A stretch of 64,000 nucleotides of DNA, from the NCBI GenBank assembly GCA_035236585.1, contig CP141135.1, positions 61,658,190-61,722,189 on the forward strand, read 5' to 3'. Shown in pieces: positions 7,926 to 59,099 of this stretch (its first letter is position 1; the number at the start of each line of letters is the position of its first letter). Made by a program: the position numbers and the translations under genes. The notes under the pieces are model-generated. The model searched no databases and had not been told where the DNA came from. It saw only the letters and a list, made by a program, of their open reading frames with translations. This stretch comes from Warburgia ugandensis (taxonomy: Eukaryota; Streptophyta; Magnoliopsida; Canellales; Canellaceae).

Positions 7926-8096
7926 ACGATGATATTCAGAAAATTGATATTGTGTTTGATGAGGAGTCAGAGTCTGATGATAGACTACATTTCCTCATCC
8001 AGATGAGAATACGATGATCTTCAGGAAATTGATATTATGTTTGATGAGGAGTCAGAGTCTGATGATAGACTACCATTTCCTCAGCCAGATGAGAAT
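7926..8096 (+). repeat. tandem duplication of an acidic VIR coding block
   Basis: Units 7926-8010 (85 bp) and 8011-8096 (86 bp) both encode IDI(V/M)FDEESESDDRL and a PFPQPDEN-like end. The first unit lacks one C in ACTACATTTCC against ACTACCATTTCC, which shifts its frame. VIR proteins I remember carry a single copy. Confidence 0.9.
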
Positions 8097-11158: not shown

Positions 11159-12130
11159 AAGAAAAGAAATGAACTTAATAGGCATCCAAAAACTAAGTGG
11201 TGGAACTTAAAAGGAGAGAAAATAATCTCATTCGCAAATAAGTTGATGGTATAAGGAAACTAGAATTATGAAATAGAAGTAAACACCATGTGGATTAATA
11301 TTGCTGAGTCAATTAAGAAAGTGGTAAAAGATGTCTTAGGAGTATTTAAAGGTAAAAGGCAATTAGTAAAGAAAACATGGTGGTGGAGTGAAATAGTGCA
11401 AAAAGTTATTAAAGAAAAATGGATGTATTTTAAAGCATGGTAGAAGACTAGAAATAATGAAAACTATGAACAATATAAAAATACTAAAAAGGCTGCTAAG
11501 AGAATAGTAAGTGAGGCTAAACTTAAGGTATATGATGAGTTCTATAATAGACTAGGAACAAGAGAAGGTGAGAAAGATGTGTTTAAACTTGCAAAAGTAA
11601 GAGAACAGTAAAGACTTAGATCATGTTAGGCGCATTAGAAGTGATGATCAAAGGGTATTGGTCAAAGATGATGAGATCAAATAGAGGTGGGAAACGTACT
11701 TTCAAAAATTATTAAATGATAATGGTTTTGAGAATATAGGGATTGAAAATACTATAAATCTAAATAACATTGGATATTATTGATATGAACATAGGATTAG
11801 AATACCTTAAGTGATAGAAGCCTTGAAAAAGATAAAATCAAGAAAGGCCATGGGGTCCAATGGTATACCAATAGAGGTTTGGAAGCATATGGGAGATATT
11901 GGCATAATTTGGTTGACCAAGTTATTTAACAAGATTATAAAATCAAAGAAAATGCCTGATGAGTAGAGAAAAAGCTCTGTTGTACTAATTTAATAGAATA
12001 AAGGAGATATACAAAGTTGTACTAATTATTGAGGGATTAAACTTATGAGCCACACTATGAAACATTTGAAAGAGTGATTGAGAAGCAGCTGTGGCATGAG
12101 ACTAGTGTATCAGAGAATTAGTTTGGTTTC

Positions 12131-12949
12131 ATGCCTAGGAGGTCTACCATGAAAGCTATTTTCTTACTAAGACAATTGATAGAGAAATATAGGGAGAGGA
12201 GAAAAGACGTCAACATGGTCTTTATTGACTTAGAGAAAGCTTATGATAGAGTCCCTCGAGAGTTAATATGGAGGGTGTTGGGCGAGAAAGGTGTTTCACG
12301 AGGGTATATAAACATAATTAAGGATATGTATGAGGGAGCGGTAAGAAATGTTAAGACCACTAGTGGCGAGACCGATGATTTTCCTGTCATTGTAGGATTG
12401 CACCAAGGATCAACATTGAGCCCATACCTTTTTACGCTGGTTATGGATGAGTTAACAAAACATCTATATGAGGAGATTCCTTGGTGCATGCTATTTGCAG
12501 ATAATATAGTCTTACTTGATAGGACAAGGGAGGGTGTAAATACAAAGCTAGAGTTATGGAGAGAAGCATTAGAATCTAAAGGATTTAAAATCAGGCGAAC
12601 TAAGACAAAATATATGGAATGCAATTTTAGCAAGGAAAGTAGAAGTGGAACCTCAGTCAAGATTGATAACCAACAAGTTCCCAGAAAAGTACACTTTCGG
12701 TACTTAGGGTTAATTATTTATGAGAGTAGAGAGATTGAGAGGGAGGTTACCCAGAGAATTCAAGCGGGTTGGAACAAATGGAGAAGTGCATCTCGAGTTT
12801 TGTGTGATCGGTGGGTGCCACTCAAACTAAAAGGAAAATTCTATAAGATGGTCATAAGGCCAGCCATGCTCTATGGATTAGAGTGTGGGGTAGTTAAGAA
12901 ACATCATGCTCATAGGATGAGCGTTGTAGAAATGAGAAGGTTGATATGA
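12131..12949 (+). pseudogene. RTE LINE reverse transcriptase, catalytic site altered
   Basis: A 272-codon open frame with NMVFIDLEKAYDRVPRELIW (palm motif A), LHQGSTLSPYLFTLVMDELT (motif B), and CMLFADNIVL where the family has FADD. The second catalytic Asp is Asn here. RYLGLIIYESREIEREVTQR and RPAMLYGLECG follow, then a stop. The frame continues past it as MSGKTRKDEIRN and IRLRWFGYVQRR, the RTE C-terminal region, to about 13255. It would copy LINE RNA at the nicked target if intact. Confidence 0.85.
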
Positions 12950-19749: not shown

Positions 19750-20920
19750 TGTTGATTGTTTAACTGCAAGTGCATAGGCTATTGTAGTGTAGCTTATGCA
19801 AGTACGGGTCGATCCCATGAGGACTTGATTTAAAATGATGGAGTTTTCAATAAAATTCAATTAATAAAAGAATAAAAACAAAGGCTATACTAAAAATAAA
19901 CTAAAATCCAAATTTCTTCAATTTCTGCAGTTTGCACTCAAAAGAGAACAGAAAATAAAACTAAAAGGCGTCCTGGATAAGCTTGTCCTTGGATTGCACT
20001 ATCCCTGAATAGTCTGTCCTGGATTATACTGTCCTTGAATAGTTAGAATGAAGATAAGGTAAAACCAGAATAGTACAAGGACACAGTTGGAATTAAATCA
20101 GGGACTCAGTTGGAATTAAATCGGGGACATAGATGGAATTAGTCTGGGGACACAGATGGTATTAAATAGGGGACCCAGTTGGTATTTCTGAAATCTGCCA
20201 GGGAACACGTTTGGAATTCCTGAGATCTACCAGGGGTACACTCATAATTTCTTTAGGGGTTCTGGTTTTTCACGAAAAAACTAGGAAAATACGGTGGGAA
20301 CTGGAGAAGGGGGGAAGAAAGGAAGAGGAAGGAGGAAAGAGAAGGAGGATCACGGGAGTGCGTTGGGAATGGAAACCCAGTTTGGGTTTCCAGTCCTAGA
20401 CCGTTCGGTGAAGAGAAGTGAGAGGGTAGAGAAGCTGGCCGGAGGAAGAGAGGAGAGTGGAAGAGATGGGAGGACCGTCCAACAAAGGAGATGGAAGAGA
20501 AGCTGGCCGGAGGATGAGATGGGGAAGAAGATGGGAGAAAACTCGTGTTGGGTTTTCTCTCCTTGGGCCGACCGGTGCTAGGCTTGCTAGTAGCTAACAG
20601 AGAAGAGTTTGTCGAGCAAGGCGAAGTAGGTGCGATAGAAAATTGAGGAGCAGATGAGGCGTCGCACGTAGAGTGAAACAGACGCCTAGTCTGCCCTACT
20701 GGCCTGGGTAGATGGGTAAATTAGAGAGAAGAGAATGGAGAGGAAGGGGGGTTGATCTGCCAGCCCAACCAAGTCCTACTCGAGGTTTGGAGAAGAGCGC
20801 TGGAAAGGGATCAGGCGAAGATAAACGGTGATGGAGGGCTGGATTGTGCAGGGCAGACAAGGGGCTAGAAGAGATGAAACAAGAGAGAAAGCAAGGAGAT
20901 TGGGCGACTAGAAACTCTAG

Positions 20921-21003
<83 letters not shown>

Positions 21004-21886
21004 GAGGAGGAGGAGGAGGAGGAGGAGGAGGAGGAGAAGATGATGCCAGCCAGCCCAGGTGTGTCACGCACCTATGGCCGGCCTAGCAGCAGATCTGATG
21101 GGAAGCAAAGGAGAGAAAAAGAGAGAACAATGGAGATGGAGAGGAGGAGAGTGTGTGCTGGTTAAGAGAGGTGTGGAGAGGGAAAGAGAGAAGAAAGGGT
21201 GAAAGAGAAACAATACGTGAGATAGAGGTGAGGAGAGGAAAGAAGAAGGGAGAAAAGAGGGAGTGAGGGAAAGAGAGGAGAGGGAGAAAGTCAACCAGCC
21301 CCACCCTCCTAAGAGGGGAAAACCGTTCCCCTTGGGAAGAGAGTAAATGAAATATGAGAAGAGGGAGAAGAGAGACGTGAAAGAGTGGAAGATTAGAGGG
21401 AGAGACGTGTAGGTGAGAGGGGGATAAGAGAAGGAGAAAAAGAGATAGAAGAGAGAGAGAAAAGAAAAGAGAGAGATAAGAGAGAAAGGAGAGGAGAAAG
21501 AGAAGGAAGAGGAGATAGAGTGATAGAGATAGGTGGGGTCCACTAGTATCCTGGTCTTGCTAGAACTCTGCAAGTCTTCAAAGTCTTCAGTCTCTTTCCA
21601 TGAAACTTCATCTGATCTCCATCTAATATCCTTGATTCGATCTAGAGCGTCCACGCCTAAGTTGACCGATCTGCAATGCACATGACCCAATTAGTGCAAT
21701 CTAAACAGTTCAATATTCATCTAATTGCTTTAATAATCATCTAACCACTAAATCTTTCAATTTAATGGTGGATGACCAATTAACGCTAAAATGAAACATT
21801 TTATTTAAAATCTTGAAATTAATGGCCTAGATGCTCTAATTGAACACTAAATTAGGGGTATTTTAACCAAAATTGAACACTTAACA
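19750..21886 (-). mobile_element. solo LTR of an Athila-like Gypsy element
   Basis: The minus strand runs TGTTAAGTGTTCAATTTTGG to AAACAATCAACA, the same ends as the LTRs of the element at 34425-44051. Flanking ATGGA (19745-19749) and ATGAA (21887-21891) are a 5-bp target duplication with one mismatch. No internal region is present, so an LTR-LTR recombination left this copy. It carries a long GA tract and a GGA tract at positions matching the CT tracts of the paired LTRs. Confidence 0.88.
20924..21036. repeat. (GA)n followed by (GGA)n
   Basis: About 77 bases of GA repeat then about 36 bases of GAG trinucleotides inside the solo LTR. Long open frames here on both strands (SLSL or RERE proteins) are products of the repeat. 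Confidence 0.95.
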
Positions 21887-25794: not shown

Positions 25795-27716
25795 TGTTAG
25801 ATCCAAAGGTTTCAACATTGATATTTCAAATTATTTTGATAATAACAAAGCATTTATGCATTTATACTAATAATTATTTTTGAGTATGTGTTGAAGCAAT
25901 TATTCAAATCAACACAAGACATCACAAATTTTATGAAGGATCAAAGATTGCTACAAGGCTTATGGCACAAGAAGTAAGCCTCATGCAAGAAAAAGTCAAA
26001 GAAAGTCAAAATTGAAGACTTGAAGATTTAATTCTCAAAGTTTATTTTTGAGATTATGTGTTTGTATGTGCGAATGGATATAAATATTGGCAAAGCACAC
26101 ACACACTCATGCATTTCATTATTACATATTTTTTCAGCATAAAAAATTGTTTCTAAACTGAATTTTGATCATTAAAAAAAATATTTTACACGATTTAAAT
26201 TATTTTTTATGATCAAATATTTATTAAATTATGTCACAAAATATTTTTCATGGTTCAAAATATCTATTGATCATGTCATAAAAATTTATGTGCATTGGCA
26301 ATTTTTAAAGATACGAAACAATTATTTTTAAGGAATATTGATGACAAATATATATATAATAAATTTACACTATATCTTATTCTTAGTGGGAAACATATGA
26401 CACCAATGCATGTTTGTACTCCATATTATTGCACATGCTAGTACTTGTCTCATGTGGGGAACATATGACACCACTAATGCATGCTTGTACTTCATGTTAT
26501 TGCACATGCTAGTACTGGTCTCATGTGAGGAACATATGACGCCACTAATGCATGTTTGTACTTCTTGTTGTTGCACATGATAGTACTTGTCTCATGTGGG
26601 GAACATAGTAAGGAACATATGACACTACTAATGCATGCTAGTACTTCATATTGTTGCACATGATAGTACTTGTCTCATATGGGGAACATAGTGGGAAACA
26701 TATGACACCACTAATGCACGCTTCCACCTCTACTAAGCCTCAAATTGTGCTATAAAAGGAACCCTTCACCTCCTCATTTTGCATCCATTTATTGTAAGAG
26801 AAATCAAGAGAGATTGATAGCAAAAACACTCCAAAAAAATCAGCCTTGCTACTGCCCATATTTCTCTAGAAAAATCCTTCAAACAGTGTTCTTCTTGAGT
26901 TATCAAAGAGCCATACTTTTTGCTACCATTTGCTGAAATTTTTAGAAGCTCTAAACTCCAAAAACTCACTTTAGTTGCTACCCTTCTCTAGTCCAGAAAA
27001 TTTCCTAGCAGTTCCACTTTTGAGTGTTCAAAAAGTGTTATTACTTGTGTTCTTCATTGTTATACTTCTCTACTTGCTAATCACATGTAAAGCTTATTTT
27101 CTTTTGTTAGTAAAGCTCTGTAGATTTATTTTTCTGCTTAAAATTGACTGCCTATTTATTTTGAAGCACATCATTGCACATTCACAACTTCATATTGAGC
27201 ATACATAGTCTTGCATATACATATTGCTCATAGCACACTTTGCCAAAATCGTTATATTTTTTCTTATGTGCAAAAACAGTTAACTATATTGTAATATCTA
27301 TCCTAAAAGAGGATTCATCGTACTTAACCTTTATATTCTTGTATTTGGTGTTTAAGGTCGGATCACCACATCAAAAGGCTTTGGATTCTTGGTGTTTAAG
27401 GTTGGTTCACTGGAATAAAAGACCTTGGTTGTAAAGGAGTTCTTACCTCCTATTGTTAGAGTAAGTGAATAGTGGAAACCTCAAGGGCAGTTGTTTGCCT
27501 TGGGAAACTAAGTGGAGTAGGTCTTGGATATATAGACCAAACCACTATAAATCCTTGTGTCTCTTGTCTCTATTTACTTTCTTAGAAAGCTTTATTTTTG
27601 CTTATTTTCTTTACAAGCACATTTACTTTCCTTGAGTTGAACATTGCACTTTATTGTTTTAATTTTTCAAAAAGTTCAATTCACCCCCCCTCTTGAGTTG
27701 CCTACATGGACTTTCA
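25795..27716 (+). mobile_element. solo LTR, Copia type, with target-site duplication
   Basis: It begins TGTTAGATCCAAAGG and ends GGACTTTCA, flanked by AAGGG at 25790-25794 and 27717-27721. The 3' part has GACCAAACCACTATAAATCC, AATTCACCCCCCCTCTTGAG and other hallmarks of plant Copia LTRs. The 1922-bp LTR has no internal region next to it, so it is solo. A minisatellite lies in its middle. Confidence 0.85.
26391..26722 (+). repeat. minisatellite in the Copia LTR, about 4.5 units
   Basis: AACATATGAC recurs at 26392, 26460, 26531, 26613 and 26697, giving units of 68, 71, 82 and 84 bp. Each full unit has CACTAATGCATG.TTGTACTT, TTGCACATG.TAGTACT and GTCTCATGTGGGG. The two longer units carry an extra GAACATAGTAAG or GAACATAGTGGG. 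Confidence 0.9.

Positions 27717-34365: not shown

Positions 34366-34426
<61 letters not shown>
34366..34426. repeat. (AT)n then (GA)n, target of the Athila-like insertion
   Basis: About 20 bases of AT then about 40 of GA end exactly where the 5' LTR starts. The GA tract resumes at 44052-44094 after the 3' LTR, so the element split one GA microsatellite. Confidence 0.85.
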
Positions 34427-35940
<1,514 letters not shown>

Positions 35941-35946
35941 AGTTTT

Positions 35947-35964
35947 TGACGCCGTTGCCGGGGA
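35947..35964 (+). promoter_or_regulatory. primer binding site, tRNA-Asp type
   Basis: TGACGCCGTTGCCGGGGA lies 6 bp after the 5' LTR. It matches TGGCGCCGTTGCCGGGGA, complementary to the 3' end of plant tRNA-Asp, except for G to A at the third base. This primer is typical of the Athila group. Confidence 0.85.
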
Positions 35965-36592
35965 CTTGTAATGAAGTTTTATAAAATTTAATTAAAAATA
36001 AAAAAAAATACAAAAAATTAGGAATTGCATTTTAGGAATTCTTAGGTGCATATTTAGGCATTTTTAGTGCATAACTACTTTATTTCCTAAATTTGGTACT
36101 AATCATTATCTTTCTTTTTCAGGAAATTGCAAGTGGAGCATCATCACTTAGATAGATTTTCCTTGCTTTCCTAGATTAGAATTTTTTATTTTATTTTTGA
36201 GTGAATCTTGTAGTGAGGCCCCTTGTAATTTGCATTTTTAATTTCAATTTTTAAAGGGTTGTAATAATACAGGGCAAGTCTGAGATAAGGTGGCTCACAC
36301 TTGATCTTCATCAGAAACCTCACTGTAAGTCTTCTCATTCATTTATTTTCTAGATTAGGGTTTGCATTTAGAATAATTTGCATTGTTTGGTAATTATTTG
36401 CATATAGAAAGCATCTGTTATAATTGTTGCATCTTAGGGTTTTGCATTAGTTTATTGCTTTCAATTGCATTTTAGGACACGTCTAACACTTTAAGGTGAA
36501 TTATATGTTGATCGAATTGTCATGGTATGTGAAAAATAATTAGTAACGACACCCTACCCCATAAGATCAAGGGTGGATTTCATCACCACTCC

Positions 36593-36908
36593 TTGGCTCA
36601 CCTAGGATAATCACCTCAAGCGCGCAACCCTACCATTCACTTTAAATTAAAATCAATTAAAAGAGACCTATAGGGTCAGCACATGCTCGTAGGACCCTCT
36701 TAATAGGACACGAATTACTGTCACTCCAATTGCTTTTGATCACTGTGATTATTGGGGGTTGTCTAATAGAGCCTCGCTCTTCCCCCACCTCCTGTTGATG
36801 TTCGTGAGGTCTAAACGCCTCCTTACACGAGGGTTGTATTAACCGCGTTGGTTAGAATTTAACTGGTGAGCAGTAGTCAACTCCTAAAGAGAAGAGTGTT
36901 AGATTAGG
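36593..36908 (+). repeat. leader domain shared with the LTR at 53873-58084
   Basis: It aligns over its whole length with the reverse complement of 55722-56042. The best part is TCTAATAGAGCCTCGCTCTT CCCCCACCT (shown in two parts), GTGAGGTCTAAACGCCTCCT and TTACACGAGG. The two host elements are otherwise of different Gypsy lineages. Confidence 0.85.
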
Positions 36909-37088
36909 CTAATTAAAATCATTGTCCCCACAGAAAATCAAAATATCTATGCTTGCTAGCCTTAGGGAAGTGCTTGATTGTGTCCTTGATTATGCATCAT
37001 TCTAGGCATTTAGGTTGCATCATTTAGGATAGTTAAAAAATAAAAAATAAAAACCAAAAAAATAAAAACCAAAAAGAGCTTTCATTGT

Positions 37089-38636
37089 ATGCCCTTTTGG
37101 ATACGTGACGAAACCAGTAGGTTAGTCTCGTACGACCAAAAAGACAGACCAACAATGGCTGATCAACGATCAAGGGGTAACTCACCCCATGGTAGTATCA
37201 GAGGTGATCAAGGTCCTCCACTCATCATGAATGAGGACCCACCACCTCTCATTGATGATGAATATCAGCCTCCACCAAGGAGGAATAATCATCAACAAAG
37301 AAATTGGAGAAGGAATGGAAATAGGGAATGAGACCAACAGAGTGACCATGGAGAAAATGATGTTTATCAGAATCCTCATGGATGAACCTTAAGAGACTAC
37401 CTTCAACCTACATGCACCAGTACACCCTCTTGTGTCATTCTTCCTCAAAATACTAGTGCTTTAGAATTAAAAATGGGAGTAATTCAATTACTTCCCAAAT
37501 TTCATTGGCTAGATAGTGAGAGTCTTTATTTGCACCTTAAAGAATTTGATGAGGTATGTAGTACCCAAAGAACCCAAAATATAGGTCTAGATACTGTCAG
37601 GCTTAAGCTATTTCCTTTCTCTTTAAAGGAAAAAGCAAAAATGTGGTTTAATGCACTGCCACCAGGTTCCATAAGGACTTGGAATGAAATGACTAGGGAA
37701 TTCTTGAAAAAGTTTTTCCTTACACATAAAACAAATACACTCCATCGTAAGATAATGAACTTTACCCAAAAAGATAAAGAATCATTTTTCTAATGTTGGG
37801 AGAGGTTCAAAGATCTATTGCTTACTTGCCCACATCATGGCTATGAACCATGGCACATTATGAGCTTCTTTTATGAAGGACTTAATTCTGACATGCGCCA
37901 GTTTGTAGAGATGATGTGCAATGGTAACTTTTTGAATAAACAATTAGATGAGGCGGAGGAGTATTTGGAATGGCTAGCTGAAAGTGCATAGACCTGAGCT
38001 GACTCAGAAAGAGTAGAACATTCAGATAGACCCAAGCCCACTACCACATCTACTAGGGGAGGCATGTATGCCATGACTGAAAAAGATGAAATCAGTGCTA
38101 AAGTAGTAACCCTAGCTAGAAAAGTAGAAGCCATGGAAATGGGAACAAAAACCTTAACTAATGATGAACAAGTGTGTAGCATTTATGAAAGTACGTCACA
38201 TCTTACCCAGGAATGTCCTACCATCCCTGCATTTCAAGATGTACTTCATGATCAGGCTAATGCACTTAATAATTATAAAAGACCTTTCTCCCCATATTCA
38301 GAGACATATAATCCCAACTGGAGAAACTATCTAAATTTCAGTTGGAGAAATGGACCTAATGCAAATATCTCACAACCAGGCCCATACCAGAGTCATCAAC
38401 AACCAAACCAAGGACTACTTGCTCCACCACCATATCAAACTCATCAACCTCATTCTCCTGGACTTTACTTGCCCCCACTTAAAAGGCATGTAGAGGATAA
38501 TCAAGTTAATCAGAACCAGGAGAAGAAAATATCTCAATTAGAAAAGTCTGTGAATGAACTAAAAAATATGATGAGTCAAATGATGCAAAATATGGAAAAA
38601 GGAAAAATTCCCAACTTAACCACAAACAAACCCTAA
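37089..38636 (+). pseudogene. Athila-like gag, one frame with in-frame stops
   Basis: Gag forms the particle that packages element RNA. One reading frame spans the region, likely starting at Met 37155 (MADQRSRG). It encodes TLRDYLQPTCTSTPSC, MGVIQLLPKFHWLDSESLYL, VRLKLFPFSLKEKAKMWFNA, LPPGSIRTWNEMTREFLKKF and CWERFKDLLLTCPHHGYEPW, the Retrotrans_gag pattern. Stops occur at 37332, near 37383, near 37791 and near 37989. The zinc knuckle reads CSIYESTSHLTQEC where CxxC is expected, so the second Cys is Tyr. Confidence 0.88.
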
Positions 38637-40041
38637 GGGAGTGCATGTAGTTAGCATTAATGCATCTGATGAAACATCTAGCTCTATCATGGAACAGACT
38701 AAAGTTGTTACTCTTCTTATGAGTGGTAAAATAATTGAGAAAGATGAGCCTCAAAAGATTGAAAAGGTAGAAGAACCTAAAGAAAAATATAAAGAAAAGG
38801 ATCCCGCTCCATCTATTAAGCCATGTCCATTACCTGCTCCATTCCCTCAATGGTTGCGCCAAGCCCCAAAGTCTGCATCTAATGATGAGATTTTAGAGAT
38901 TTTCAAGCAAGTCAAGATCAACATACCGATCTTAGATGCTATAAAACAAATCCCATCATATGCCAAATTCTTAAAAGACTTATGCACCATCAAGAGAAAA
39001 TTAAATGTCCAAAAGAAGGCATTTTTGACTGAACAGGTTAGCTCTATTCTTCAACATCATACACCACCAAAGTACAAAGATCCTGGTTGCCCCACTCTTG
39101 CTTGTATTATTGGCAACTACAAAATTAACCAAGCTCTTCTTGATTTAGAATCTAGTGTGAACCTATTACCATACTCGGTATATGAACAGTTAGGTCTGGG
39201 TGAATTGAAACCTACATTTACTATGCTCCAGCTAGCTGATCGTTCTATAAAAATACCACGAGGGGTAATAGAGGATGTGTTAGTCCAGGTAGAACAATTT
39301 TTCTTCCCTATAGATTTTTTGGTTCTAGATACACAACCTGTGGTGAATGAGAAGAATGAAATATCAGTCATCCTAGGACGACCAATTTTGGCTACGTTCA
39401 ATGCATTAATCAATTGTAGAAATGGTGTAATGAAATTGTCCTTTGGCAATATGACAATAGAGCTCAACATCTTCAATATTTGTATGCAACCTGGTGAAAC
39501 TACTGATAATTTGCACAATGTTAACATGATCACTTCAGTTGTGCAAGATCAGTTTCAGTCATCTTCTTTGTCGGACCCACTTGAGGCCTGTTTGGCCCAT
39601 TTTAATGAGTTTAATGAGGATACATTAATAGAGGAAGTTAATGCCCTCCTCGATTCTATGCCCCCTATGGATACAGAAAAATGGAAACCTCATTTCAAGG
39701 TGCTTCCATTGAGTGAGATCACTCCCCTCCCATCATCAGTAAAAACCCTTACAGAGCCTAAAATTCAAATTGAGCCTTGTAATGTTGAAGACGTACTTGA
39801 TTGGGACCTACAGACTTTATTTGAACAACCATTAGATAAGAAATTAGGCCCACCTGAAGTATTACATGTGCCAATTGAACATGAGGAAAAAGAGTCCATT
39901 GATATATTGTCCATACATCAACCGACTCTAAGGTACACATTAGAAGATAATCATGATGTAAGCAAAACCATGCTCCCTCCTCTATTAATACAAGAACAAT
40001 CTTTTAAGGAAGGGCATACTGAGCTTATACCTCAATCTTAG
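38629..40041 (+). CDS. Athila-like protease ORF (466 codons open) without RT
   Basis: The frame lies +1 to gag and joins it near 38625 at a NPKGVHVVSI-like point. It is open to 40041. The first part has VVTLLMSGKIIEK and PFPQWLRQAP, then a retropepsin-like domain: ALLDLESSVNLLPYSVYEQL, LADRSIKIPRGVIEDVLVQV and ISVILGRPILATFNALI. The family has DLGASVN or similar, so the Gly after the catalytic Asp region is Glu here. DPLEACLAHF and EEVNALLDSMPPMDTEKWK follow, then ITPLPSS, where RT should begin. The last ~100 codons have no domain I recognise. Confidence 0.85.
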   Translation, partial: NPKGVHVVSINASDETSSSIMEQTKVVTLLMSGKIIEKDEPQKIEKVEEPKEKYKEKDPAPSIKPCPLPAPFPQWLRQAPKSASNDEILEIFKQVKINIPILDAIKQIPSYAKFLKDLCTIKRKLNVQKKAFLTEQVSSILQHHTPPKYKDPGCPTLACIIGNYKINQALLDLESSVNLLPYSVYEQLGLGELKPTFTMLQLADRSIKIPRGVIEDVLVQVEQFFFPIDFLVLDTQPVVNEKNEISVILGRPILATFNALINCRNGVMKLSFGNMTIELNIFNICMQPGETTDNLHNVNMITSVVQDQFQSSSLSDPLEACLAHFNEFNEDTLIEEVNALLDSMPPMDTEKWKPHFKVLPLSEITPLPSSVKTLTEPKIQIEPCNVEDVLDWDLQTLFEQPLDKKLGPPEVLHVPIEHEEKESIDILSIHQPTLRYTLEDNHDVSKTMLPPLLIQEQSFKEGHTELIPQS

Positions 40042-42048
40042 GAAAATGTAAGGGAAAAGGAGGACCATTCACATATATATGGTTCAAAAGAATTTAAATT
40101 AACGGTAGTTGACATTGTTATAGAGATTCCACCACCCAAATTTTCAAGGTGGAGGAATTATATTGATTATTGTGAAATTTTGAAGATAGGAGATCGTCAG
40201 AGTGGTCCCACTCAATTTACATTCGTGGTAGTCTATTGTGTCATAATGCTACCATCACCAAAAATTTTAGGGTGGATGAAATATATAGACTATCGTGAGA
40301 TTTTGAAGTGGCATGAGAATTCTTGCCATTTCATTATTGGAATCTGAAAAACTCAAAAATAAATGAGGATATGTCTGGCTGAAGACGTTAAACTTAGCGC
40401 TTACTGGGAGGCAACTCAGAGTTTTCATTTTTGTTATTTTCTACATCACCCATATTCCTTTTAGGTCCTACTTTTTAAACATTGAGGACAATGTTTCTCT
40501 CAGGTTGGGTGGTGTAGAATTCTAGTAAATTCTAGTTTTTCTTGATTTTTAGGTGTTTTCCTTGTTTTTCAAAAAAAAAAAAAAAAAATTTAGGTCATTT
40601 CCTATACTATGATGAGAATTGGATTTTCTAAAGTATAATCTGGATAACTTTAGCTTATTAATGGAATTGAATATGATTAATTCATTATTTTACTCATTTT
40701 CTAAAGTATTCCATGAAAGCAAAGTCTCAGATCACATTTGTACACAGCAGTTGCATATAGATAGTCTAAATTGATAAGTAGCTATAACTTAGAAATTCTG
40801 AAGAAATTAAGTGGAGACCTATAACCTAAGTGAGTTTTAGAGTCATTCATCCTTTTGAGAGGTTATAAATATTCCTAATTTTCTTCAACGTGCTTAAAGA
40901 AAATTGATCTCAAACTCTTAAATTTGGCTAATTACCTGAATAATTAGAATACGACCTTTAAAAATATGAAAGTTCATTGAATTTGATAGATTATAGGAAA
41001 CCTAGAAAATGATTTAGGCCATCCTTGTTATAACTTAGAGACATAAAGCCTACCCATAAGTATTTTTACCACTAGTTAGCCAAGTTGAGCCTTTTAATAT
41101 AAGCCTTTTCTTGTTTCACCCAAATTACCCTTTACCCATATTAACCCAATATAAACTATCCATTACCCATTTTTCTTTGAAAAATAAGTTAGAGAAGAAT
41201 GAAAGAATATCTTTTAGTTGCAATGAAAGTAGAAAAGTGGATATGAAGAAAAGAAATATTCTTCAAAGTGAGTCAAAAGTACTGAAATATAAAGAAAAAA
41301 GTTAAAAAAAAAAAGAGTTTGAAGAATGCAAAGAAAAATAGAAAAAGAAATATTCACTTCATCAAAGAAAAGAAGAATTGCCAACTTTAAGAAGACATCT
41401 ACTTATTTTTTGAAGAAACTTTGAATACCCTTATACCCTTTTCTTTGGTATCCTGTCCTAAGCCTATGTTTCGTCCCAGTTAAAGACCTATTGATTCTAA
41501 AAGAAATATAGTCTTGATGAGGAAATGAATGAATAGGATTAAAAGAGTGGTATTTCTAAATATTCAAAGGTAATGACATCCATTTCAAAGGGATCAAAAC
41601 AATTCCTTAGTAACTCCCGTTCTTCATGAGCATATGTGAGATAAATTTGTTTTTATTGACTCTTCTCACATAATCAAAAGAGAAATATGAGTTGAACCCT
41701 CTATCTGAGAGACTTTATTTCTGAGCGTATGTCATTAGTAAGGATTGAGGTCAAAACATATTTCAGATGGAGTTCAAAAGTTAGAAGTCTACTTAGAGAT
41801 AAAGATTATTCTATGTGTAGACTGTATACGCATACACTCACTCTGAGATCTGAGTTGGAATGTAATATTTTTAGCATATGGGTAAGGTTTTGAATTATTC
41901 AGTCATCTTTATTAGTTTGCTAAAGTTGATGGATTTATTTAAAATAATTCTCTGAGAAAAAAGTGGAGATGACCTGAAAAATAAAAAAATTTGAGTTGAT
42001 TTCTTCGCATCTTTTGCTAGGGACTAGCAAAATGCTGGTTGAGGGATG
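40042..42048 (+). other. 3' internal region of the Athila-like element
   Basis: A degenerate stretch encodes KFSRWRNYIDYCEILK and a similar GWMKYIDYREILKW, an internal duplication. Near 40385-40420 lies GACGTTAAACTTAGCGCTTA, then ACATTGAGGACAATGTTTCT near 40476; both belong to the Athila 3' region. The rest is AT-rich with no pol. A poly-A run is at 40570. GAGGGATG just before the 3' LTR may be the polypurine tract. Confidence 0.7.
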
Positions 42049-44051
<2,003 letters not shown>

Positions 44052-51780: not shown

Positions 51781-52499
51781 AAAACTTCCTGCATAATTTC
51801 TATATTTTTTGTTGGTTCCTTATTATATATTCTTCCTGCAGTCAACATACATTTGACAGTCACTATCACTAGAAAAATTAAAAGAACACATTCACTTTAT
51901 TTTTGTAGGCTACAATCATTTTACAACATACATTCACTTCTAACATTTCATATTGAACTTCTCCATACACAACTTATTGAAATAAAGAAAGCATGCACAC
52001 ACTTCAACCAAAAATAAAAAGGAAAACATCCATATAAATGAAGTGTTGTTTTGTATTTCATTGATAAAAACATTCATATTCAATAACATCATCTAAAAAC
52101 TAAAAGTCAAAAGATATTTAGTCTATTCCTGATGTCATCTGTATCTAAATGGGAGTAACTCTTGCTTCATAAATAAGCCTGCAAGATAACATGTATTAAA
52201 TCAGTTGAGACATATCTTAGAGTCATTCAAGAAATGATGAAAACTATACAAATGATGATTAGTAAATTGTCTTACCTTTCTAAACTATGAGATCGTAAGT
52301 CCTTCGCAAATAAGGGTTCCCATATATCTTAGAACATAGTACCCACAGTTTTAATTAAATTGTTGTTTAGGGAGCTATAGTAGTGTGCTCGCTTCTAGAA
52401 TTAGTTTCTGAGCCTAAAATCTAGTTCATATTTAGAATATTTTTCTAGTACAAAAGAATAACTTCTGTAGTGTAGATCAAACTTCAAAGTAGCCTTTAA

Positions 52500-53867
52500 A
52501 ATATCTTAAGATTCCAATTAATGCTTCTTAATGGTCTTCCAAGATTACTAATGGATCCACTTAATCTATTGATAGCATAAGCAACATATAGTCTAGCGGA
52601 GATCATCAAGTAAATAAGTCTGCCTAAAGTAGTAGCATATTTTGCTTGCAATACCTCCTCCATTGGTTTTACACAAATATGAGTTTGGATTACAAGGTGT
52701 TGAAAATTGTTTGTAGTAAAAATATATTAATTTTCTTAATATTTTCTCCACATAATGACATTGAGTCAAGATAATTTCTTTTTTATTTAAAAATTTTACT
52801 TCCTAAAACATCTACACTTAGATATTCATTTCAAAATTCCTTTCAAGAAAATTCTTAGTGCTTTTTATTACTTCAAAATTAGTATAAAAAATTAGAATAT
52901 CATTGCATATCAACAAATCATAATATCAATGTTCTCTTCAAATGTGTTATAAAAATATTTCTCTAACTCATTTATTCTAACTCTATTTGGTAATAACACA
53001 CTATCAAAGTTTCATGCCACTAGTTAGGAGCTTATTTCAAGCTATATAATGATTTAAGGGATCTACAAATTTATGTTTTTGTCTAGGTACTACAAATGTG
53101 TTTAGTAGTTTCATATATATTTTCTCCTGTAAGACTCCATTTAAAAAGGTGGTTTTGATATCCATTTGATGTATCTCAATGTTATAAATACTAGTATTCA
53201 AGTTATAGCTATTTGAGTTACTAGACTATATGTGTCAAAGAAATCCACTCCTTTCTAAGTGAATCCTTGATCTACTGGTCTAACTTTGAGTTTCTTTATT
53301 GTTCCATCACCTCTAAGCCTTTTTCTAAAGATCCACTTGCATTTTATAACTTTGCTTAATAACCATGTATTATACGTATTTCTAGAACATAGTGATACCA
53401 TGACTTCTTCACTTGTAGTAGGACCTCCTTCCACTATATAAGTATAAAATCAAAATGAAAATTTGTTTCACTTCTAGTTATTTTGCTTCTCCTATATTTT
53501 TCTTCATTTCTAATAGTTATTTGTCTATCAAAGGCAAATATTTCATGTTTAGTATGACTAAGGCTAGATTTTCTTGTTTTATACGTAAATGTGTTCTTGA
53601 AGGACTACTATTGTCTTGATTCTATGATGGTATTCACATCTATCCCACCATTTTTAGACTTTAATACTAAGAATTTACATGCACTACTCTTGAGCATATT
53701 CTACCTTAGCCACACACCACCTCTCTTTGATATATTTGGACCTTTATTTTTTTTTATTCATCCACATTTCACATGAGGATTTTATCTAATTCTTAAAAAA
53801 AATTGTTAGTACAAAAAAACCATTTAGAAGTTCTTCTATCCATAAATTATGACGTAAATTAAAACTT
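52500..53867 (-). pseudogene. Copia integrase end and reverse transcriptase, degenerate
   Basis: From the right it gives SFNLRHNLWIEELLNGFFVL (integrase), then SKVIKCKWIFRKRLRGDGTI and DQGFT.KGVDFFDTYS (RT start), KHKFVDPLNHYIA.NKLL (RT middle) and GRLIYLMISARLYVAYAINR (RT end). All fit Copia pol in order. Frames must be switched often. Confidence 0.8.
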
Positions 53868-55721
53868 GTTAGTGTGAAGACTAGGGTTTTTAAAACGTAT
53901 TTTCATAAATATTTGCAAAGGTAGGGCCCTGATTTTGAAAATTTTTAAAATTCAAACAGCAAAAACATATTTTCTTTGAAATTGATTTGTCAAAAACCCG
54001 AGTGTCACCTCAAATTACTTATCATATATAGATTTTTGTATAAAATAAAAATTCTATTGAATATCAGTAGAAATACTTTTATTAAAATCAGGATCAATCC
54101 AATGGTTCACATACACAACCCTGGTAGTCATTATATACCTTGTTCAAATATTATAATCCAAATTACAAAACAATCAATATAATCTTGCTCAAAGTAAATA
54201 CCCTGAGTCGTAATTCAGTGATGATTATCCACAAGTTTTGAGCTTTCAATCTTCCTTAATTGTATCTGAGATATTGTAAACATTCAAACATTTACAATAT
54301 CTCAGCAAACTCTGCTTGGTAGGAGATTTAAGAAATATATTCAATATATCTCAAAATAAAAAATTCTTTATATTCATGGTATAAATCAATTTATACAATT
54401 GGATAACCATTTCATCCTTCACTCATTATATGAATTATATGTATATATTACATATGAATAAAACCATTGAAAATCATGAATATAGTCAATATCATCAATA
54501 ATATCTCATTTTCAAATTGATTTCAATATTAACACTAGGTGTTAATATATAATCATACTGTATTGGGAATCATCTTCCAATACAACATTGGTAATAACTT
54601 TTACCGGGCATCTCATTGTGCCATAAAATAAGGAATCTCATCACGCCATAACATAAGGCATCTCATCATGCCATAATCAATTGCATCATAATGTCAAATA
54701 ATCGCAAGGACTACCAGCTTGCAATCTTAATCCGTACATCATGCCTGGATAACTGCTTAATACTCTATTGATATCACAGTGAAAAATACAGATCCATGTT
54801 CATATGGGGGGAACCATGGCTGTCACAGTGGCATGGTATCGTCATCATAATTAGTTTCGGAGAGCAGGTGGCCAAACCCTTATAACTCTCCTAGCATTGG
54901 CATCCCCAAGCATAAGCATGTCTTAAAACAAAACCACAAGCCTCCATGCTTGTATGGAAAATAATATTTTATACTTACAAACTGTGTGTCTGGTTATAAT
55001 ATGACATGCTTATAACTTATTTTTTTAAGATTTGGGGGTCCAACTTATATAATTCAAATCTTCTCATTCTCCCATTAAGTAATTTCATAATTACTTAATC
55101 AATCACTTTGTATTCATTTCAACATCATTTGTTACCTTAAGTAATTTCATAATTACTTAATCAATCACTTTTTTATTCATTTCACCATCATTTGTTGATT
55201 TATAAATAATTCTAAGGAAATTATAATTAATCTATAGTTATTAAGATAAGATCATGTGTAAAATACATGTATCTTATATATTAAATATATTCTTAAGGTC
55301 CACCTACCTTTACTTTCAACAATCCATCTTCTCATTGATCTTGATACTCATATCCTTCATGTATTTGTCAAATCATATATATACAGTCATTCCTCAACTC
55401 ATTTATACTTCCTAGTTGTTCTTTTGACCATCCTTACATATGATGATTTGGATTTTTTTCCTTGGATCATATTGATCAAGGTTCTAATCTATTGATCTAC
55501 ATTTAAATATAATATTCATACTAATTCACAAACAGACATACTAACACAATATTATGTTTCTTATTATTCTTGATCATTTAAGATCTTCCTATGGATCTTA
55601 TTTGATCTTTGATTATCTTAATTACACTTTTTATTAAGATTAGATAGTTTACTATCCTTTTATGATCTTATTATTATTCAACAAGTTAATGTTTTACTGA
55701 TTGAAGATAATTTATGCACAG

Positions 55722-56042
55722 CTAATTCTAGACAACTCCTCTTATTTTCAATTGACTAAGGTTTACCAGATAAAAGCTATTTATGGAGTGATTAATTCAA
55801 TCCTCATGTAAGGAGGCGTTTAGACCTCACAAACATTGCCATAAGGTGGGGGAAGAGCGAGGCTCTATTAGAGAACCCCCTTACCCATCATTTTCATCAT
55901 TTTCTAGGGTGACCTTAGCTCAACCTTCATAAGGTTCCTATGAGCATTAAACCCTAAGTACTCTTGCTATGTGATTTTAATTAAATCCATGATCATTTAA
56001 AATGTCATTCATGGGGTTTATTATTCTCCTAAATTAAGCCAA
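55722..56042 (-). repeat. domain shared with the Athila-like leader at 36593-36908
   Basis: The minus strand has TCTAATAGAGCCTCGCTCTT then CCCCCACCT, GTGAGGTCTAAACGCCTCCT and weaker similarity to both sides, over about 320 bp. It lies within the LTR in the LTR's own sense direction. Confidence 0.85.
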
Positions 56043-57654
56043 GGAAATAATATTCCGTATATTGTCTTACTAACTATAGCCCTTACTATCATTAAGTCCA
56101 TGTACATATTCATTGTAGATGTTCATCAATATCTATTTTTATTTAATGACATTTTTCATGTATACATGAACATTAAAGTGTAAATAAACAATTAAATCCA
56201 CTAAACAAATAAAAGAACATTTACAATAGAATATAATAACTCTCATGCTCATTTGAATATATTTTATTTGTCCATTTTGATCCCATGATCATATTTTAAT
56301 CATTTTGCATCTCATTAAGGGTTTTGATCTTGATCTTTTATTTTTATTCAAATCTATTACATTATCTTAATGTGATATCATTACTAAATCATGATGCACC
56401 TCATCATATGATATGATCTTTCTTGATCCAACTGATCAATATGCTCTTATAGTTAGGATCATCATCCATTCTGATTCACAATTTTTTATCATCCTTGATC
56501 AAGGAGATGATTATGAATTTTAAAGGATTTTATTACTTTTAATGATCAAGATCTAAAGATCTACCAAATCAGTTACATCCAATCCACTTCTTTAAGTTAT
56601 CACATCATTAGGTCACTAATGGATCAAAATTCTAAGGTTTGATCATGTCAGGTTTGATTGATCTGGAAAATTAGTACCACTTTTTATGATTTATAAAAAT
56701 TTATAGTAAATAAAACTTAAATTTTATATTTTCATTAGATTCTACTCTTCACTAGGAATTCATAGCTTCTTTCCGATCTTGATTTAGAGTTAAAATGAGC
56801 TCTGAATTGGACTTTTAAATTTTTAGTCAAAACAAGGGCCCATATTCAATATGGGTTATTCAGATCGACGAGTCAATCAACGGCCAGCTCCTTTTACCAC
56901 TAATTCCCAGTGTATGGGGAGGGTGACTTGGGATAAGCAAGACCATCTGATCTAGATCGTCGGATCACCATTTTCCCCCATTCACCAAGATCTGAATGAG
57001 CCATCATCTCATATTTCATGCCCTTGGGTTTTTGAATACTAGGAATCTATCCAATGGCTCAAAATATCCAAATAACATTGATTTACCAGAGTTTTTAAGA
57101 TAGGTCAGCGGTACTGGATCCATCGAAGAAACCTTGCCAAAAAATTCAATCTAGTGATCTTCTTGCCATAAAAACTACCAGAATAGATATAGTAGAAGAT
57201 GAGGAACCTACCTATAGCATCTAGAATTGAAGAATAAAGCCAGAAAAGAGAGATCCACGCCAAAAAATATAGGTTGCTAGACTTATTATTTTTCGGTGAT
57301 TTCACCAGTGAATACACCTTCGATCAATATAGAATCTTAGGGCTTTTATAGATCAGGTCAGCCCAAACCCATCAAATGGTGGAGATTGAATTATAACGGC
57401 CAAATTTGGATGGCTAATTAATTTAGGGTTTTCAAGTGGAAACCCTATTCAGTTGGGGACGACGAGTCCTCAAACGCGCCTGACGCTTTGTGAGGGAATA
57501 TTCCCTTTGGTGCATCCGTAGACGCGCTCTATGGCTGTAAAGGGAAGAGAGAGAAAAAGGAGAGAAGAGAGAGAAAGAGAAAGAAAGAGAGAGGGAAAGG
57601 GAGAGAGTGGAAGCTTGGGAATTTTTGTGCAATTTTGTGAAGATGTTAGGGGGA

Positions 57655-57662
57655 TATTTATA
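57655..57662 (-). promoter_or_regulatory. possible LTR TATA box
   Basis: TATAAATA on the minus strand, at the place matching 147-154 in the related LTR. A purine-rich tract (57540-57610) lies downstream in the LTR's sense direction. Confidence 0.35.
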
Positions 57663-58089
57663 GATTTATTTGTGGAATATTTTAATTATTTTTTATTTTA
57701 AATATTTTTTCAATTTTTCTTATTTAATTCAAAAGAAATTCCTCATCATGTTTATTGTTCATCATTAATATTCCCTGAGCTAGCTGCCTACCAGCTCACC
57801 TAACTTTTGTAGACCCCACACAAAAGTGAAATGACCATTTTACCCCTATGGGTAAATGTAAATTCACAAAATTAAGAAAAATAGGAATTTTTCACTCGAG
57901 CTCAAATTTCAGTGTGCTTACAGTTATTCTAATTAGTTTCCCATGAATAATTTCAAATATTTACGTTTTAAGACCTAATTCTTGTCCTAAAATTTAATAT
58001 TATATTAAATATAATATTTTACCATGATTTTCGTAAAAATTCTAATTAATTTCAAATAATTCCAAAAATTTTGGGGTTTTCACAGTTAG

Positions 58090-58424
58090 CATGTCTTTCA
58101 CCATGTTCATGAGAACCCAATTTGTCCTCTAAACTATTCTATTTTGTTGTGGAGAATAAAAAGTTGCTACTTTGTAAATCACTCCTTATTCTTTGTAGTA
58201 TTTGCTGAATCAAGAGAGGTAAATTCTTCAACTCTATCAGATCTTAAAAATTTTATTTTATTGTCTAATCGGTTTTCTACTTGTATTTTGTACATTATGA
58301 ATTTTTCAAATGATTCATCTTTACTTCTAAGAAGATATACACTTCTATATCTTGTACATTCATCTATAAAAATGATAAAGTATTCCTTTTCCTCTTGAGT
58401 CGGAGTATTTCTAGGATCTAACAT
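58090..58424 (-). pseudogene. Copia integrase core fragment
   Basis: It encodes EYFIIFIDECTRYRSVYLLR, SKDESFEKFIMYKIQVENRL and IKFLRSDRVEEFTSL, then after a frameshift VIYKVATFYSPQQN and MNMVKDMLT. These are the D,D part of the Copia integrase core; Gly-Glu after RSDR is replaced by Val-Glu. It stops at the GTTAG duplication of the solo LTR. Confidence 0.85.
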
Positions 58425-59099
58425 ACATCACTATTTATTGACTTCAATATTACAATGACTTTTTCTATCTTGGGGAAGGTTTTCTAGTTAACTTACATTG
58501 TGTGAAGATTTCACACTTATGGTTACTTCATCTAGTACTTTACCTAGTAGCCCTAAGTCTACCATTTTTTAGTGATGTTACATTTACATATCATAGCCTA
58601 CTAGACAACATTTTTGTAGATGAAGCTTTATTGATGACACTCTCAATTACATTTGATTTAAATAAACCTTTAGAACAGTATCTCATTCCTAGCTATTACT
58701 AGTTTTTGGACTTTAAAGACCAGTTTGAATCATTTGTTGCTTAGTATTGACCCAAAGACTAATTTCATTCTTATATCCATTACATGTGATACTTCGTTTA
58801 GCTTAAGCTCTTGGCCTAAAATTAGCTTTAACAAGATCATGCCCTTCCTTGCTAGTGTAGATGAAGAGGAGTTTCCTATGAATAATTGTTCTTCTTCTCC
58901 AAGAGGCATGTAGGAAGAGAACACACTTCAGCCTTAACAATTCCACTAAAGAGTGGGTAGAACATCTATAGAAAATATAAGGTTTTCATGAGACTGATCA
59001 TGAACCAACATCAAAGTACTGATTATTCTGTCATTATAACATTCATTTATGAATAAATAGTAAAATTCAAATGCAAATTACATATTTTACTTCCAAATC

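Follow-up and report, generated by a model that had tools for sequence, protein, structure and literature searches.

Why would two apparently unrelated LTR retrotransposons carry the same stretch of about 320 nucleotides in the same sense? The question arises from a 64,000-nucleotide stretch of the Warburgia ugandensis genome (hereafter the window), for which an earlier note, made from the letters alone, had placed such a segment in an Athila-like leader and in the LTR of a chromovirus-like element. Here we examine the two elements, the relationship between the two copies and the explanations that could account for it.

One copy of the shared module is in an Athila-type leader, the other in a long solo LTR

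The features on which the analysis rests are as follows.

34426..35940, plus strand: 5' LTR of an Athila-type element, its 5' end abutting an AG microsatellite
35947..35964, plus strand: primer binding site (PBS) TGACGCCGTTGCCGGGGA, read directly, just inside the 5' LTR
36593..36908, plus strand: copy A of the shared module, within the Athila-type leader (BLASTN and shuffle tests)
about 36753-36842, plus strand: conserved core of copy A, with two hairpin candidates (alignment, cmsearch)
37155..40038, plus strand: gag, interrupted by stop codons, and a protease-like ORF (Pfam, ORFs)
42049..44051, plus strand: 3' LTR of the Athila-type element, matching the 5' LTR
53040..58427, minus strand: degraded Copia element, interrupted by the solo LTR (Pfam pieces, ORFs)
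53873..58084, minus strand: solo LTR of 4212 bp, starting TGTGAAAACCCC and ending GTCTTCACA (TG...CA)
55722..56042, minus strand: shared module, copy B, at about nt 2043-2363 of the solo LTR (BLASTN and shuffle tests)
about 55792-55881, minus strand: conserved core of copy B (alignment, cmsearch)
57340..57351, minus strand: TATA box CTATAAAAGCCC of the solo LTR, at offset 733

The placement of copy A in an Athila-like leader is supported by an LTR pair, a PBS, gag and a protease-like ORF. The two LTRs are 92% identical over 1496 aligned columns (K2P 0.090) and have TG...CA ends, the leading TG being intact in the 3' LTR only. We take the PBS to be of the tRNA-Asp type, as known for Athila. tRNA-Asp is among the PBS types given for non-chromoviruses in the literature (PMC6317226). 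The gag region was recognized by the Pfam family Retrotrans_gag (PF03732, 2.9e-13), which is not specific to Athila, and a second gag piece (Retrotrans_gag, 0.0025) and the protease-like ORF (Asp_protease_2, E 0.14, a weak match) fall below the cut-off. About 630 nt separate the PBS from the start of copy A, and a further stretch of about 250 nt lies between its end and the probable gag ATG at 37155. Among the 8 plus-strand ORFs of at least 60 aa between 37044 and 41890, no Pfam match to reverse transcriptase or integrase was found, and the element (34426-44051), with its gag and protease-like ORF, is possibly non-autonomous. Elsewhere in the window, the minus strand of 19750-21886 holds a solo LTR whose family is also Athila-type and related to this one. 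Its longest pieces are about 78-79% identical, and its 5-bp flanks (TTCAT and TCCAT) are alike without being identical; neither an exact PBS nor the module was found beside it. The window also contains a reverse transcriptase match at 12122-12946 (RVT_1, 1.4e-25), which may belong to a LINE or to a Gypsy pol fragment, and short direct duplications, 86-95% identical, at 26386-26722, 55075-55196 and 7926-8096.

Copy B lies within a solo LTR that is flanked on both sides by the 5-bp target site duplication CTAAC and has no coding region of its own. As the ends of an LTR are inverted repeats, its orientation was read from the TATA box: CTATAAAA occurs once in the LTR when both strands are searched, as the TATA box itself, and looser TATA-like sites are also found downstream of the module. 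Pieces of a retroelement polyprotein flank the LTR, one per side and on the same strand, namely an integrase piece at 58182-58427 (rve, 2.4e-4) and a Copia-type RVT_2 piece at 53040-53225 (3.3e-6), both below curated cut-offs. With integrase on one side and RVT_2 on the other, we conclude that the solo LTR was inserted in an old Copia element, whose limits, judged by eye, are probably near 52499 and 60297; four other ORFs around that element gave no useful Pfam match. We also considered whether the sequence could be a small complete retroelement rather than a solo LTR and rejected this, the sole internal direct repeat found being a 60-bp tandem.

The chromovirus (Tekay/Del) identity of the solo LTR is plausible by analogy: the LTR is very long, the stretch before its TATA box is short, and its start, as we take it, resembles that of Del/Tekay elements. 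Copy B sits 1.3-1.6 kb downstream of the TATA box. Retrosat2, which has been assigned to Del/Tekay (PMC6317226), is described as having an LTR that exceeds 3.2 kb, in which a U3 of about 243 nt precedes a very long R (PMC3485330), and this short U3 and very long R make a position of copy B in R/U5 credible. Judged from one TATA box and the analogy with Retrosat2, copy B is thus probably part of the transcribed leader, in sense; a start at one of the TATA-like sites downstream of the module would leave it untranscribed. A further LTR piece related to this solo LTR occupies position 1 to about 650 on the minus strand, where it is cut by the window edge, with 303-422 matching the U3 side of the solo LTR at 81% over 123 columns.

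The two copies are homologous along their length

When 36400-37100 was searched against the window by BLASTN (match 1/mismatch -1), 36642-36907 aligned with 55985-55722 at 70% identity over 274 columns (E 1e-31), and under a stricter scheme an ungapped 89-nt core, 36754-36842 paired with 55880-55792, was recovered at 88.8% identity (E 3e-28). The segments 36593-36908 on the plus strand and 56042-55722 on the minus strand are homologous, as the earlier note had proposed from the match of the first to the reverse complement of the second. Global alignment gave 84/153 identities (55%) in the left flank, 79/89 in the core and 40/66 (61%) in the right flank, with 17, 0 and 4 gap columns, respectively. 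A fall of identity to background on proper alignment had been named as one outcome that would speak against the claim; each flank, aligned alone, instead exceeded all 500 of 500 dinucleotide shuffles (left, score 45 versus a maximum of 35; right, 42 versus 37). The core had been described as almost unchanged, and this is what was observed: it carries 10-11 differences over 89 columns (78-79/89 identical, depending on the alignment) and holds two runs identical in both copies, of 29 nt and 24 nt, the second of which contains the 20-mer cited earlier.

Outside low-complexity tracts no other similarity between the elements was detected, in line with the claim that they are otherwise unrelated. 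Comparing the whole Athila-type element with the solo LTR under a low-complexity filter returned 8 matches at E up to 1, of which the module alone had E <0.01; unfiltered, 69 of the 70 matches (E up to 1e-3) fell in the CT-rich tract of the LTR. No third copy of the module was found in the window by word-7 BLASTN, the next matches being short (E 0.007 or worse) and located for the most part in an A-rich tract beyond the module, and a covariance model of the core, run over the window, matched the two known copies only. The description of the core as GC-rich in AT-rich surroundings holds in part: its G+C content is 52% in copy A and 47% in copy B, whereas the Athila interior has 35% and the LTR 31%, but it is not unique in this, as equal or higher G+C occurs in 270 of the 4124 89-nt windows taken from the LTR and in 40 of the 6020 from the Athila interior.

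Other identities for the module were examined and rejected. No frame is open across the whole module in either copy, which argues against a coding segment; short frames that cross the core are in some cases open in both copies, but the 11 differences fall by codon position as 5, 5 and 1. No tRNA was found in the window, and a known RNA family was discarded on the results of Rfam searches, in which the window had no match at gathering and neither copy matched at E up to 1. Two sequence collections (viral_contigs and genome_contigs) were also searched; both are viral or prokaryotic, and null results there say little about plants. In the search for copies elsewhere, an exact 20-mer and a 22-mer were each found in 0 contigs of viral_contigs and two patterns gave 0 in genome_contigs; a gag fragment had no relative in viral_contigs. 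A 16-mer occurs in 2 contigs of viral_contigs, L001 and L002, which were judged to be chance matches: BLASTN gave a match of at most 23 bp for L002 and none among the best 20 matches for L001, and the core covariance model gave partial matches only on these contigs, at 14.6 and 14.0 bits. No such shared module is described in the titles and opening lines of abstracts among the literature matches listed, and a literature search with a literal 16-mer of the core returned no match.

The core has diverged far less than its flanks

The core is 89% identical between the copies versus 55% and 61% for the flanks (Fisher p = 1.6e-8), which differ by 39-45% and contain gaps. Had both copies descended from one shared insertion, core and flanks would be expected to have diverged equally; the contrast observed instead points to selection on the core or to a recent transfer that involved only the core, and for these two sequences either fits better than one old insertion. 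The LTR divergence (K2P 0.090, about 0.045 per site for each LTR) implies that the Athila branch should by itself have gathered about 4 neutral changes per 89 nt, and copy B has also decayed after insertion. Post-insertion decay could thus account for much of the 10-11 core differences, and the cores of the active elements were probably nearly identical while the flanks were not. Three readings had been offered for the segment, among which a regulatory or structured-RNA module fits best, because the copies have the same sense, lie in an evident and a probable leader, respectively, and have a core far more conserved than the flanks. A plain old independent insertion, also among the three, does not by itself explain the contrast.

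Evidence for RNA structure in the core

A fold of two hairpins was proposed for the core, the first being GGGGG...AGAGC-CTC-GCTCT...CCCCC and the second GAGGU-CUAAAC-GCCUC on a longer wobble-rich stem; it was picked after both sequences had been seen, from an alignment of two rows. All 24/24 pairs form in both copies. Nineteen are invariant and 5 vary by one-sided changes, each kept through G-U, with 0 pairs changed on both sides; a shuffle control of pair conservation equalled the observed value in 500/500 cases and, with two rows, does not discriminate. Read in antisense, 19 and 20 of the 24 pairs hold. When substitutions were placed at random, keeping the real numbers of transitions and transversions, a shared fold as good was obtained in 9 and 5 of 1000 and in 16 and 8 of 1000 placements (two runs), and in the same simulation the antisense strand, with 73 and 6 of 1000 as good, was also better than most simulations. 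RNAalifold found column shuffles of the core to be as good in 1/300 and 2/300 cases (95 and 92 nt), those of hairpin 1 in 1/300 and those of hairpin 2 in 10/300; for the whole module under ribosum scoring, 1/200 local shuffles were as good. Across the full module, two-sided changes are no more frequent than in shuffles: 43/200 shuffles have at least as many.

The stability of a single core is unremarkable against dinucleotide shuffles (z -1.23 and -1.35; 57 and 51 of 500 as stable), as is that of a 101-nt stretch (z -0.77 and -0.84). Shuffles were as stable as hairpin 1 in 47/500 cases and as hairpin 2 of copy A in 29/500, and 116/500 random mutants of copy A were at least as stable as copy B. 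Within a 490-nt context, the GAGGU/GCCUC helix is the only one predicted to be likely in both copies (0.76-0.89), while the GGGGG hairpin is likely in copy A and reaches about 0.1 in copy B; for the wobble-rich stem the values do not exceed 0.10 in copy A and 0.00 in copy B. Overall, these models provide mixed evidence for RNA structure, which is suggestive of one short hairpin, GAGGU/GCCUC, and leaves the rest of the fold tentative.

Candidate explanations for the shared module

The reading that we favour, tentatively and at somewhat under even weight, is that the two copies represent a homologous, modular cis-acting RNA element that would lie in sense in the 5' leader of two Gypsy lineages, have a host factor as its partner and have been moved by recombination. 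On this account the module would sit in the leader of the genomic RNA, between PBS and gag in the Athila-type element and in the probable R/U5 of a long LTR, and the constraint on the core, which may fold into one or two hairpins, would act at the RNA level. The candidate partner would be a host factor that sets the fate of full-length RNA, through export, retention from splicing or translation. Upstream ATGs are numerous, with 9 between the PBS and the gag ATG of the Athila-type element and 129 after the TATA box of the solo LTR, making simple scanning to gag unlikely, at least in the element from which the solo LTR derives; reaching gag would then require splicing, internal entry or a different start site, and an export or RNA-fate signal would fit this load. 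The module may have passed from one lineage to the other, or from a third lineage to both, by recombination that was probably template switching between co-packaged RNAs. Both the exchange between lineages and any function are what we infer from two sequences.

A different history, which we consider unlikely, is passive capture, whereby a third repeat, or part of one element, entered the other by insertion or recombination and the core is similar because of a recent gene-conversion tract or because its source was conserved, and not because it functions in both elements. Such a history would suit a module with two copies only, neither of them established as typical of its family, one in an element lacking a match to reverse transcriptase or integrase and the other in a solo LTR. 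It sits poorly with the unequal divergence of core and flanks, as a single insertion should have affected both alike, and a target duplication around the module was rejected, no 8-mer being common to the tested left and right border stretches of either copy. Quite unlikely, in our view, is a module acting at the DNA level, as a site for a transcription or chromatin factor that serves both elements as a downstream enhancer (in the LTR possibly an upstream one). The GC-rich core, its near-palindromic stretches and the AT-rich DNA around it are consistent with such a site, as are the TATA-like sites downstream of copy B, given that the start of transcription in the LTR was read from one TATA box; the copies nevertheless share one orientation, and the G-U changes that keep pairs suit a sense RNA better than an antisense one, subject to the weaknesses of the fold stated above.

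The leader position of the module would also be expected of a dimerisation or packaging signal of genomic RNA, bound by the Gag of the element and allowing one element to use the particles of the other, an explanation that we regard as very doubtful. The Gag proteins of the two Gypsy lineages are, from general knowledge, expected to be very different, while the host is common to both, which makes a host factor a likelier partner than a lineage-specific Gag. In favour of a packaging signal, the Gag-less BARE2 is reported to be packaged in trans and to have conserved dimerisation and packaging signals (PMC3735527), and the Athila-type element analysed here has no reverse transcriptase or integrase match.

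Comparison with known systems

If the favoured reading of a mobile cis-acting RNA element is correct, non-coding control modules, beyond LTRs and coding domains, would move between Gypsy lineages. Whole LTRs are reportedly exchanged between autonomous and non-autonomous retrotransposons in soybean, a process known as LTR swapping. The present case would be similar in that a non-coding control sequence is exchanged, and differs in that the sequence is a module of 320 nt found in different parts of the two elements. Mammalian LTR elements offer parallels to a proposed non-coding RNA module. The RTE of IAP and the MTE of musD are non-coding RNA modules that use host export factors (PMC12786077), and the SERV-K/MER11 CTE, an HML-8-derived region of about 750 bp gained by recombination between retrovirus lineages (PMC11379458), provides a precedent for transfer from lineage to lineage. 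In SERV-K the module is located between env and the 3' LTR, whereas the place proposed for the module described here is the 5' leader; the function of the mammalian transport elements has been tested, whereas our module is known from its sequence, and no sequence relation to them is claimed. In its strongest form, to which we give little credence at present, our proposal would make the module a plant counterpart of these transport elements, that is, a portable structured RNA that recruits a plant host factor, was exchanged between Athila and chromovirus lineages and was nearly unchanged in the active copies.

Among plant elements, the Sireviruses (Ty1/copia) are described as having highly conserved non-coding motifs amid otherwise divergent LTR elements (PMC2829016). 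Those motifs belong to one genus and are placed near the PPT, in the LTRs and upstream of env (PMC2829016), whereas the segment described here is a leader segment common to two apparent Gypsy lineages. Cauliflower mosaic virus, whose structured 5' RNA leader is reported to recruit a host export complex (PMC12786077), is similar to the present case as a plant retroelement leader; no match of sequence or structure is claimed. The export of LTR retrotransposon RNA is said in a 2025 review to lack direct studies in plants (PMC12786077), and a leader segment kept in two lineages would be a candidate host-recognised signal, making the question of export in plants testable by a small reporter.
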